Made by a program: the position numbers and the translations under genes
Shown here: positions 25,622-28,666 of the stretch, one piece after another
How the letters are laid out: each line of letters starts with the position of its first letter
How positions within the stretch are numbered: position 1 is the stretch's first letter
Assembly: GCF_020089865.1 (NCBI RefSeq)
Contig: NZ_JAIRBM010000003.1
Span: 186,001-250,000 of the forward strand
Reading direction: 5' to 3'
Source: Microvirga puerhi
GTDB taxonomy: Bacteria; Pseudomonadota; Alphaproteobacteria; Rhizobiales; Beijerinckiaceae
DNA: 64,000 bases
The notes under the pieces: generated by a model
The model's database searches: none
What the model saw: the letters and a program-made list of their open reading frames with translations, nothing else
What the model was told of the DNA's origin: nothing

Positions 25622-26929
25622 TCAAGGCGCGTAAAGATCCGCCCGCGTCGGCGGCAGATTGGCCGGGCCCTTGGTGCGCTTGGAGGCAAGCGTCTGGTTA
25701 ACGCCGATGACGCCGCGCCCGAATCCCAGCGAGACGCCGGCAAGATAGAGCAGCCATGTGCGCGTCTTCTCCGGCCCTACCTCCGCCTCCGCCGCGGCGC
25801 GGCGGGCGTTGAGGTTTTCCCACCACAGCCGCGTCGTGCGCTGATAATGCTCTCGCCAGGTTTCCACGTCGTGCACCTCGAAACCGTAGCGTTCGAGATT
25901 GGCGACAGACATGCCAAGATGGTCGAGTTCCGCACCGGGGAAGATGTAGCGCATGATCGCCTTGGCTTCCGGCTTCAACCGTCCGAAGGCTTTGTCCGAG
26001 CGCTTGGCCCGGCGCGCGATGCAGTGATGGAGGTAGAGACCGCGTGGCCGCAGGAGGCGATGCACGGTGCGATAATAGGTGGGATGATTGGCGATCCCCA
26101 CATGTTCGAACATGCCGATGGACGAGATCTTGTCGAACTCCCCTTCCATCTGGGTAAAGTCTTTCAGGATTACCTCGACCCGGTCCTGTAGCCCGAGCCG
26201 TGCGATCTTCTCTCGGGCGAGGGCGGCCTGCTCCTCGGCGAGCGTGACGCCGGTCGCCTTGACGCCGTAATGCTGCGCCGCATGGCAGATGAGCGCCCCC
26301 CAGCCGCAGCCGATGTCGAGCAGGCGCTCACCGGGTTTGAGCCGCAGCTTGCGGCAGATCATGTCGAGCTTGTCGACCTGCGCCTTGGCGAGGTCGTCGT
26401 GCCAATCCGGCTGGAAATAGGCGCAAGTATAAACCATCTCCGGATCGAGAAAGAGCCGGTAGAAGGCATTCGACACGTCGTAGTGGTAGGCGATGTTGCC
26501 CTTGTTGGTCTCGGGCCGTCCGTCGCGCGCGCCGGGCTTTTCCTTCACGACGTCGAGGGGGCGAGGCATGTCGGCGGGCGCGCGCCAGAACTGGTAGGCG
26601 GCCTTCAGCGCCTTGATCTTGCTCACACGCCTCAGGCGCCGGCCGATCTTGCCCTGGGGGCGCTGATCCGCCAAATCGAAAATCGTGCCGTTCTTGAGGT
26701 CAAGGAGCCCTGCCACGTGGGCATTGACGACGGTGTCGAGCGCCGGGCGGCGCAGGAGAGCGGCCACGACGCTCTCGTGGCGGATCACGAGGCGCATGGC
26801 ATAGGGCGGCAGGTCGGCCGGCACGGCCGATCCGTCCCACAGCTCGAAGCCGAACGTCAGTTCGAGCGCCCGATGGGCGTCGGTCAGAAGGCTCCGGATG
26901 GTCTCCAGCCGTTGGGTTCCGCTCATCAT
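25622..26929 (-). CDS. cfa: Cyclopropane-fatty-acyl-phospholipid synthase
   Basis: This SAM-dependent methyltransferase of about 435 residues makes cyclopropane rings in membrane phospholipid acyl chains. Features include the NIAYHYDVSNAFYRLFLD segment, DWHDDLAKAQVDK, the SAM-binding LLDIGCGWG and the EHVG catalytic-region segment FEHVGIANH. A much longer frame (to 27202) is a shadow of the sigma gene. The Met at 26929 has GGGGAGGG immediately upstream. It lies 74 bases downstream of the ECF41 sigma gene on the same strand, so it may belong to the same transcription unit. It could respond to membrane stress (inference). Confidence 0.92.
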   Translation of the reverse strand: MMSGTQRLETIRSLLTDAHRALELTFGFELWDGSAVPADLPPYAMRLVIRHESVVAALLRRPALDTVVNAHVAGLLDLKNGTIFDLADQRPQGKIGRRLRRVSKIKALKAAYQFWRAPADMPRPLDVVKEKPGARDGRPETNKGNIAYHYDVSNAFYRLFLDPEMVYTCAYFQPDWHDDLAKAQVDKLDMICRKLRLKPGERLLDIGCGWGALICHAAQHYGVKATGVTLAEEQAALAREKIARLGLQDRVEVILKDFTQMEGEFDKISSIGMFEHVGIANHPTYYRTVHRLLRPRGLYLHHCIARRAKRSDKAFGRLKPEAKAIMRYIFPGAELDHLGMSVANLERYGFEVHDVETWREHYQRTTRLWWENLNARRAAAEAEVGPEKTRTWLLYLAGVSLGFGRGVIGVNQTLASKRTKGPANLPPTRADLYAP

Positions 26930-26948: not shown

Positions 26949-27003
26949 TACCGTAACGGGGCCATGCAAGCCGGACAATCGTTCCTTTGACCTGAAGGGC
27001 CTC

Positions 27004-27882
27004 TCAGTGTTCGGAAAGGCCGGCGCTCGCCGCGACGTGCCGGAGCTTCTCGGGGTTGCGGACGATGTAGATCGCCGTCACGAGGCCGTTCTCGATCTGC
27101 AGGGCGAGACTCTGTAGCTCTCCGTCGCTCTCGCGGGTGATCACGCCGGGCAGGCCGTCGATAAGGCCCCGATAGACGACGGACGGGATGTCGCTGTCCC
27201 ACTTGCGGGCGGCGCCCGCGAAGAAACCAGCCACCCTGCGGATGCCGAGGAGCGGATTGAGAAATGCTTTTCGAATGCCGCCGCCGTCCGAATAGGCGAC
27301 GACGTTCTCGGCCAGCAGGTTTTGGAGCGTCGCGAGGTCGCCGGTGCGGGAGGCCGTAAAGAAGGCATCCGTGATGCGACGACCCTCGTCCGATGAGACG
27401 GTGAAACGCGGCCGGGCATCCCGTACATGCTTGCGGGCCCGCGCCGCCAGTTGGCGGCAGGCAGCCGGATCCCGATCGAGCGTGGTGGCGACCTGCTCGA
27501 AGTCCATGCCGAAGACGTCATGCAGCAGGAAGGCGGCCCGTTCGAGCGGGGACAACCGCTCGAGCGCCATCATGAGGGTGAGCGACAGGTCGTCCTCGCC
27601 ATCGGGATCCAGGGCCGATTCGACCACCGGCTCGGGAAGCCAGGAACCGATATAGGTCTCGCGCCGCACGCGCGCCGACTTGAGATGATCGAGGCAGAGC
27701 CGTGTGACCATGCGCGACAGGAAGGCGCCCGGCTCGCGGATAGCGGCACGGTCGGTCCCATGCCAGCGGATATAGGCCTCCTGAACGATATCCTCCGCCT
27801 CGCTCATGGAGCCGAGCATGCGGTAGGCGAGGCGGATCAGCCGGGGCCGGTAGGCCCCGAACGGATCCGCCATGGCGTCCAT
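27004..27882 (-). CDS. ECF41-type sigma factor (SigJ-like, SnoaL-like C-terminal domain)
   Basis: This 292-residue extracytoplasmic-function sigma factor has region 2 (AYRMLGSMSEAEDIVQEAYI), region 4 (LSPLERAAFLLHDVFGMDFE) and a SnoaL-like C-terminal extension instead of a separate anti-sigma gene. The ECF41 hallmarks are all present: WLPEP in the linker, DGGG in the extension and a C-terminal NPEKL (usually NPDKL). In this family the C-terminal domain modulates sigma activity. The frame extends to 27954, but the ATG at 27882 follows the upstream gene's stop by one base. The partner carboxymuconolactone-decarboxylase-like gene upstream is also typical. Confidence 0.92.
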   Translation of the reverse strand: MDAMADPFGAYRPRLIRLAYRMLGSMSEAEDIVQEAYIRWHGTDRAAIREPGAFLSRMVTRLCLDHLKSARVRRETYIGSWLPEPVVESALDPDGEDDLSLTLMMALERLSPLERAAFLLHDVFGMDFEQVATTLDRDPAACRQLAARARKHVRDARPRFTVSSDEGRRITDAFFTASRTGDLATLQNLLAENVVAYSDGGGIRKAFLNPLLGIRRVAGFFAGAARKWDSDIPSVVYRGLIDGLPGVITRESDGELQSLALQIENGLVTAIYIVRNPEKLRHVAASAGLSEH

Positions 27883-27883
27883 G

Positions 27884-28345
27884 TCACGCAGCGGCACGGT
27901 CGGACCCGACCGGATGAATGGACCGGAAGCCGATGGCGAAACGGTTCCAGGCATTGATGGTCGAAATCAGGAGAGTGAGCTTCACCTGCTCCTCCTCGGT
28001 GAAATGAGCAGCGAGCAGCTCGTAATCGGCGTCCGGCGCATGGGTCTGGGAAACGAGCGTCAGAGCCTCCGTCCAGGCGAGCGCTGCCCGTTCCCGGTCA
28101 CTGTAGAGGGGCGATTCGCGCCAGGCGTCGAGCAGATAGAGGCGCTCCTCGGTTTCCCCATGCGCCCGCGCGTCCCGGGTATGCATGTGGATGCAGAAGG
28201 CGCAGCCGTTGATCTGGGAAGCCCGGGTCTTCACGAGTTCGATCAGGCTTTGCTCGAGGCCGCTCTTCTGCACATGCTGCTCGAGATCCAGCATCGCCTT
28301 GAGAGAGTCGCCTCCCACCTTGTAGAGGTTCAAACGGGGTTTCAT
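27884..28345 (-). CDS. Carboxymuconolactone decarboxylase/AhpD-like protein (ECF41 partner)
   Basis: This 153-residue protein of the carboxymuconolactone decarboxylase family has the AhpD-like redox motif NGCAFCIHMHTRDAR (CxxC and a nearby His). Starts at 28366 and 28351 are in frame. The ATG at 28345 is chosen because AAGGAG lies nine bases upstream and it gives the common MKPRLN N-terminus. Such genes are the standard targets and neighbours of ECF41 sigma factors, and an exact ECF41 promoter precedes it. The physiological substrate is unknown; a peroxide or redox stress role is plausible. Confidence 0.9.
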   Translation of the reverse strand: MKPRLNLYKVGGDSLKAMLDLEQHVQKSGLEQSLIELVKTRASQINGCAFCIHMHTRDARAHGETEERLYLLDAWRESPLYSDRERAALAWTEALTLVSQTHAPDADYELLAAHFTEEEQVKLTLLISTINAWNRFAIGFRSIHPVGSDRAAA

Positions 28346-28384
28346 CGTCATCTTCTCCTTGGACATTCAAGCTGACGGAGTAAA

Positions 28385-28411
28385 GACGAGACAGCCCTGC
28401 CGAATGTGACA
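28385..28411 (-). promoter_or_regulatory. ECF41-dependent promoter TGTCACA-N16-CGTC
   Basis: Read on the minus strand, TGTCACA lies at 28411-28405 and CGTC at 28388-28385, separated by exactly 16 bases. This matches the published ECF41 consensus. It lies about 40 bases upstream of the CMD-like gene start, so the sigma factor probably activates its own operon. Confidence 0.8.
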
Positions 28412-28429
28412 TCGGGGGCGAAAGATTTT

Positions 28430-28666
28430 TTAGAAGTCGGTGGCGAGCCCCTTCACCTCCCAGTCCTCGTAGCGGACCGGCTCGAGGCCGCCACGGCCGC
28501 GAAACTCCTTCTGCTTGGTGAGATCGGCCGCTTTCGCATCGATGGCGCGCCGGCGCTCCTCCGCTTCGCGCAAGGCCCGCTCGGCGGCGGGAGAGAGGGT
28601 TTTGCCGGGCGCTGCCCCATCGGGGCGGACATTGTGGCTTGTGTCTGGGATGTCGTTCGTGCTCAT
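28430..28666 (-). CDS. Succinate dehydrogenase assembly factor 4 homolog (DUF1674)
   Basis: This 78-residue soluble protein ends in the DUF1674/SDHAF4 signature GLEPVRYEDWEVKGLATDF. Mitochondrial SDHAF4 helps the flavinated SdhA subunit assemble. A longer frame to 28807 overlaps the divergent htpX gene; the ATG at 28666 is preferred. The N-terminal half is Ala/Arg/Glu-rich and probably helical. It is divergent from htpX. Confidence 0.85.
   Translation of the reverse strand: MSTNDIPDTSHNVRPDGAAPGKTLSPAAERALREAEERRRAIDAKAADLTKQKEFRGRGGLEPVRYEDWEVKGLATDF

Follow-up and report, generated by a model that had tools for sequence, protein, structure and literature searches.

The locus described here raises the question of whether an ECF41 sigma factor governs the very operon that encodes it, and whether anything else, in the genome or next door, answers to the same factor. 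It lies in a 64,000-nucleotide stretch of Microvirga puerhi DNA, hereafter the window, in which a CMD/AhpD-like gene (27884..28345) is followed by the gene of an ECF41 sigma factor (27004..27897), both on the minus strand and both behind an ECF41-type promoter (28385..28411, minus). In our judgement this is very probably a bicistronic, self-activating ECF41 operon, with a sigma factor inhibited by its own C-terminus and a redox-type CMD protein as its output. Sigma dependence, autoregulation, C-terminal inhibition and the enzyme chemistry are the parts of this explanation that we infer from relatives studied elsewhere; what the analysis itself shows are the sequence features, the conservation of the promoter and the failure to find another credible site.

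All ECF41 sequence features that could be tested were found at this locus, and the module is an ordinary one of known type. In the 292-residue sigma factor, Pfam recognizes Sigma70_r2 (residues 9-71) and r4_2 (102-152), and these sigma2 and sigma4 domains are followed by a C-terminal extension of about 100 residues or more, as is expected of the group. The WLPEP, DGGG and NPEKL motifs that the first-pass annotation reported in its ECF41 sigma factor can all be read directly on the minus strand: WLPEP in the sigma2-sigma4 linker (27628..27642), and DGGG (27288-27277) and the NPDKL-type motif NPEKL (27057-27043) in the SnoaL/NTF2-like extension (approximately 27031..27405). The best-matching family model was the NCBIfam SigJ subfamily NF007214 (381.7 bits against a cut-off of 271), TIGR02957 SigX4 falling just under its cut-off (316.6 against 323.25); the comparison covered SigJ-type family models. 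No second full-length ECF41 factor was found in the genome, the next four matches, with 29-33% identity, being largely confined to the sigma domains.

The predicted structure of the sigma factor is of moderate confidence (mean pLDDT 71.6, pTM 0.52) and gives the extension, at about residues 160-284, an NTF2-like fold; Pfam reported no SnoaL domain in the protein at E 0.001. The best fold matches were Mycobacterium tuberculosis SigJ (5xe7) and SigG1 (7qh5), with TM 0.56-0.60, followed by limonene-epoxide-hydrolase and ketosteroid-isomerase folds among others. SigJ was the closest solved protein both in sequence (1e-43, the best PDB match) and in fold (Foldseek 1.7e-16, 34% identical in the fold alignment), its extension being longer by a few residues. 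The contact between linker and extension is not resolved in the model, in which residues 71-99 have pLDDT below 50.

The upstream gene, described earlier as CMD/AhpD-like, was borne out as such by profile matches to Pfam CMD (6.3e-21) and TIGR00778 ahpD_dom (8.3e-17), and it supplies the linked CMD/oxidoreductase/epimerase gene that is characteristic of ECF41 loci. The full-length AhpD model TIGR00777 stayed far under its cut-off (21.6 against 191.95), and the protein is therefore a relative of AhpD rather than AhpD itself. It carries the CxxC motif NGCAFCIHMH, and C50, C53 and H57 (numbered from 28351) were invariant across 11 chosen CMD sequences. This CxxC...H arrangement is that of AhpD-type redox proteins, so the protein is more likely to carry out a thiol-disulfide reaction than the decarboxylation after which its family is named. 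The nearest solved relatives, Atu0492 (PDB 2gmy, 9.8e-49) and PA0269 (PDB 2o4d, 7.5e-42), are both named hypothetical proteins in the PDB, without a function; the first-pass annotation stated that the CMD substrate is still unknown in the ECF41 family, and the available sections of the published accounts agree. The CxxC points to redox chemistry, and a role in peroxide defence is without support in tested relatives, given that mutants of R. sphaeroides and B. licheniformis are described, in the available sections of the work on them, as unaltered in their response to H2O2, cumene hydroperoxide, t-butyl hydroperoxide or paraquat (PMC3426412), which argues against peroxide defence as a main role.

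As to where the two proteins begin, the CMD gene has in-frame ATGs at 28366, 28351 and 28345, the last giving 153 residues. It is likely the true start, since AAGGAG stands before ATGACGATGAAA at this place, ATGAAR occupies the equivalent position in 16 of the 22 loci printed (the remaining six having another ATG there or one codon earlier), and the alignment with PDB 2gmy begins at the residue encoded by 28345. For the sigma factor, a start codon at position -14, counted from where the CMD stop ends, was found in 21 of 23 loci (20 GTG and one ATG) and was the sole start codon of the examined stretch in 17 of them, L031 and L033 having others nearby. The sigma gene thus most likely begins at GTG 27897, which stands at this conserved place (an alternative ATG occurs at 27882 in the M. 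puerhi genome), and overlaps the CMD stop by 14 nt. Such an overlap suggests translational coupling, by which the sigma factor would probably be translated together with CMD. The order promoter, CMD, sigma factor given in the first-pass annotation therefore stands; that annotation left the strand unstated, which is minus for both genes, and the likely starts differ from those of the longest open reading frames.

A motif scan of the window located the promoter sequence TGTCACATTCGGCAGGGCTGTCTCGTC at 28411-28385 on the minus strand with zero mismatches, comprising a -35 TGTCACA (28411-28405), a 16-bp spacer and a -10 CGTC (28388-28385), in agreement with the exact TGTCACA-N16-CGTC reported before. 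It is the sole exact site in the window, in which the number of sites with up to two mismatches, 14, is what chance would give (16.6 expected), and one of two in the 5.17 Mb genome, against 2.5 expected at equal base composition; with no excess, the 11-base exact match is by itself unremarkable across the genome. What shows the promoter to be real is its location before the CMD-sigma pair and its conservation among relatives. We compared 29 loci, from the own genome and relatives, which are the strong matches out of 30 (L040, with E 2e-10, was excluded, and other full-length matches came without loci). Twenty-two had CMD and sigma genes in the same direction with the motif ahead (21 with N16, one with N17), two had the motif before the sigma gene with the genes divergent, and five had no site matching the pattern; these last seven, in which no motif stands ahead of a CMD gene running the same way, count against our explanation.

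Because these loci were scanned with TGTCAC-N-N14..18-CGT(C/T), conservation of the -35 and -10 elements is partly built in, and the positions left free remain informative. In the 21 aligned promoters (the N17 promoter, L030, was excluded), all 21 had A as the seventh base and ended in C. The bases adjoining the -35 and -10 were also kept, the spacer ends reaching 1.50-1.52 bits, and the middle of the spacer (0.66 bits) was as variable as the upstream sequence (mean 0.62 over 40 columns). Upstream columns -17 and -15 (1.55 bits each) and -11 (1.45 bits) rise above that mean. An A-run followed by a T-rich stretch, AAAAAATCTTTC, lies upstream of the -35 at 28420..28431 (minus) and may act as an UP-like element; it begins within the stop codon of the gene next upstream, a DUF1674 gene (28430..28666, minus; Pfam 3.5e-13) that we take to be SdhAF4-like. 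The 5' untranslated part that leads from CGTC to the CMD start contains a CGTCAGC block at 28371-28377 on the minus strand, conserved in part across the aligned loci (columns 34-40).

The layout of this locus is the published >COE> >ECF> type, which accounts for 107 of 373 loci, a promoter preceding the COE gene in 97 of the 107 (Wecke et al. 2012, PMC3426412, in the sections available), and the earlier description of a textbook ECF41 module holds. Among the 80 named ECF41 loci that were the best of the matches listed, a relative of CMD, sought with the window's CMD as sole query, was present in at least 32, in 23 of them upstream and in the same direction. Three characterized systems, as described in the available parts of the corresponding reports, are close to the one studied here. 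In Sinorhizobium meliloti, SMb20029, a CxxC CMD gene, lies upstream of the ECF41 gene rpoE9 and is likely co-transcribed with it; the one mapped promoter, TGTCACACCGGCGGCCGCTGTCTCGTC, ends in 11 bases, GCTGTCTCGTC, identical to those of the window promoter, and a single target was found. In Rhodobacter sphaeroides, RSP_0606 is a CMD gene overlapped by ecf41Rsp behind a TGTCACA/CGTC promoter, and it was the sole gene besides that of the sigma factor to be induced more than twofold (PMC3426412). Both systems were studied by experiment, whereas ours is known from sequence, and that of S. meliloti belongs to another species and gene neighbourhood. Bacillus licheniformis ydfG/ecf41Bli shares the WLPEP linker, the C-terminal extension and the CMD target, and differs in its monocistronic ydfG transcript and in a -10 of TGTT (PMC3426412). 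From the conserved promoter before a co-directional pair, the conserved overlap and the experimental work on R. sphaeroides and S. meliloti we infer self-regulation, and the suggestion of the first-pass annotation that the sigma factor probably drives its own operon is supported to this extent.

In such an operon, the ECF41 sigma factor would direct RNA polymerase to TGTCACA-N16-CGTC, from which both CMD and the sigma gene would be transcribed, forming a positive feedback loop. The SnoaL-like domain would keep the sigma factor mostly inactive through contact of the NPEKL region with the WLPEP linker; restraint by a SnoaL-like extension contacting the linker motif has been described for ECF41 factors (PMC3426412, PMC8999054, PMC8103513, PMC7730460, each in the parts available), and in two species partial truncation of the extension is reported to make the sigma factor about 20 and 120 times more active, full removal abolishing activity. 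Some signal, perhaps a small molecule, would lift the inhibition, and a separate anti-sigma factor would not be needed. Profile searches found no obvious anti-sigma gene adjacent to the pair, the next neighbours being DUF1674, HtpX and a cyclopropane-fatty-acyl-phospholipid synthase (CFA synthase). The tight coupling of the two genes could also be read as a sign that the CMD protein is an anti-sigma factor or co-sensor rather than output alone, and a partner acting on a SnoaL-type ECF factor has been published, namely RsfG on SigG1, of ECF56 (PMC7730460). We consider this very unlikely, given that co-expression of YdfG left Ecf41Bli activity unchanged (PMC3426412) and that the word carboxymuconolactone is absent from the main text of the RsfG paper, as available (PMC7730460).

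A second alternative is that the sigma factor has a wider regulon, served by degenerate sites elsewhere in the genome. The genome scan for further TGTCACA-N16-CGTC sites that the first-pass annotation proposed gave no other credible target. The second exact N16 site (L004) is antisense within a flavoprotein-like gene. Allowing N15-17, there were six exact sites in the genome against three for the reversed control. Three of these were likewise rejected for lying within or antisense to genes: L006 is located in an asparagine-synthase-like gene, L003 in the 3' end of a PhaC-like gene, and L001 points, in antisense direction, into the last part of a hydrolase-like gene (these identities, like that of L004, are our assumptions, made by eye from the translations). 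L002, an N15 site before a metallophosphoesterase gene, presumably PlcP-like, was rejected as part of a repeat with 22-nt spacing that is present without ECF41 too. This repeat, GTCA-N18-GTCA (L002:1501-1590; G000:C12, from 279169), which we take to be Pho-box-like, is kept in 29 of 30 metallophosphoesterase loci (out of 50 genomes matched), the last being masked, and thus in all 29 readable loci, with or without ECF41. The pattern TGTCAC-N15..18-CGTY occurred in seven of the 30, four of which (G009, G011, G015 and G022) come from genomes without a full-length ECF41 match.

The relaxed pattern TGTCAC-N17-CGTY was found at 19 genome sites against four for the reversed control, which speaks for a wider regulon, as does the Azospirillum ECF41 factor, which is reported to control lateral flagella and which makes a single target no universal rule. 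Nevertheless, when the 19 sites were set against the 25 that this pattern gives in the two nearest relatives, a comparison that misses sites having lost the pattern there, only two had counterparts: the operon itself, in both relatives, and L184, in one. L184 sits upstream of a small divergent open reading frame and was rejected as a target, being antisense over the clpB ribosome-binding site, with the pattern in two of 30 clpB loci, the own genome included. A wider regulon is accordingly unlikely in our estimate, and the CMD-sigma operon alone is the most likely target, in agreement with the single targets given in the available reports on R. sphaeroides and S. meliloti.

A further extension of the operon concerns the CFA synthase gene (25622..26926, minus; Pfam CMAS 3.8e-87), which follows the sigma gene on the same strand after 77 nt and is downstream in 18 of the 29 loci. 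No intrinsic terminator was detected between the two genes by a simple scan, and a transcript begun at the ECF41 promoter could continue into this gene, making a three-gene operon that also alters membrane lipids. On the other side, the CFA gene has a sigma-70-like promoter of its own, TTGTCC-N17-TACGGT, at 26950..26978 (minus), just past the sigma stop codon and outside the module. A pattern of this kind, TTG(N3)-N16..18-TA(N3)T, lay no more than 90 nt from the CFA gene in 28 of 30 loci (16 of the 17 that have the cassette and 12 of the 13 that lack it in the stretch) and occurred 0.014 times per shuffled sequence. The CFA gene was also present in 36 of 37 genus genomes regardless of ECF41, the exception (G013) having ECF41 and no CFA match at E 1e-100, and in none of the 80 best-listed named ECF41 loci, up to 3 kb on each side. 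Since CFA has its own promoter with or without the cassette, the cassette is self-contained, CFA is most likely an independent neighbour, and its gene is probably not part of the ECF41 module. Moreover, the available sections of PMC3426412 mention neither a membrane nor a peroxide phenotype for the ECF41 relatives that were tested, and neither deletion nor overexpression gave a reproducible phenotype in R. sphaeroides and B. licheniformis. The three-gene operon is unlikely; for genus-specific read-through of the induced cassette into CFA, adding a membrane-lipid change to the redox output, the lack of a peroxide phenotype in the studied relatives lowers the chances slightly further. In the literature searched, no paper mentioned ECF41 together with cyclopropane.

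The self-contained ECF41 cassette has an uneven distribution in the genus. Of 37 genomes searched, the own genome included, 22 had a best ECF41 match at E 1e-100 or better with at least 60% identity, four (G017, G021, G029 and G034) had a more distant or broken copy, and 11 had no full-length match. A second ECF41 type, with 56-57% identity, was observed at L034 (G029), G016:C3, G008:C104 and G008:C70; L034 has a divergent CMD gene, with an ECF41-type promoter ahead of each of the two genes. At L035 (G021:C29:35-1222) a broken ECF41 gene lies near the contig start, with overlapping gene parts in succession (7-203, then 88-284). DUF1674 upstream and CFA downstream flanked the cassette in 17 of the 29 loci, within the flanking sequence available, with extra sequence between them in some (L015, L017 and L023 among others). 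A DUF1674 gene was also found just upstream of CFA in 11 of the 13 CFA loci that lack a cassette in the stretch, the exceptions being L056, where it is about 1.4 kb away, and L070, which begins at a contig end. On a tree of 30 CFA proteins, presence of the cassette requires seven changes, at least four of them forced by well-supported branches, and its labels are weakly clustered (40 of 500 shuffles were as low; one contig-end row was left unlabelled). The tree agrees better with repeated losses, or with several gains at one place, than with one gain.

The window locus by itself leaves the known picture of ECF41 factors unchanged, and a review (PMC8103513, in the sections available) warns against assigning a single function to the group. 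The adjacency to CFA is the one slightly fresh element, with the evidence speaking against membership in the module; read-through into CFA, if true, would be the first physiological hint, towards membrane or lipid stress, of the signal sensed by the SnoaL-like domain. What the locus offers is a clean and conserved ECF41 example, beside a lipid-modifying gene, for testing that signal and the substrate of the CMD protein, and close relatives with and without the cassette allow natural comparisons for a phenotype.
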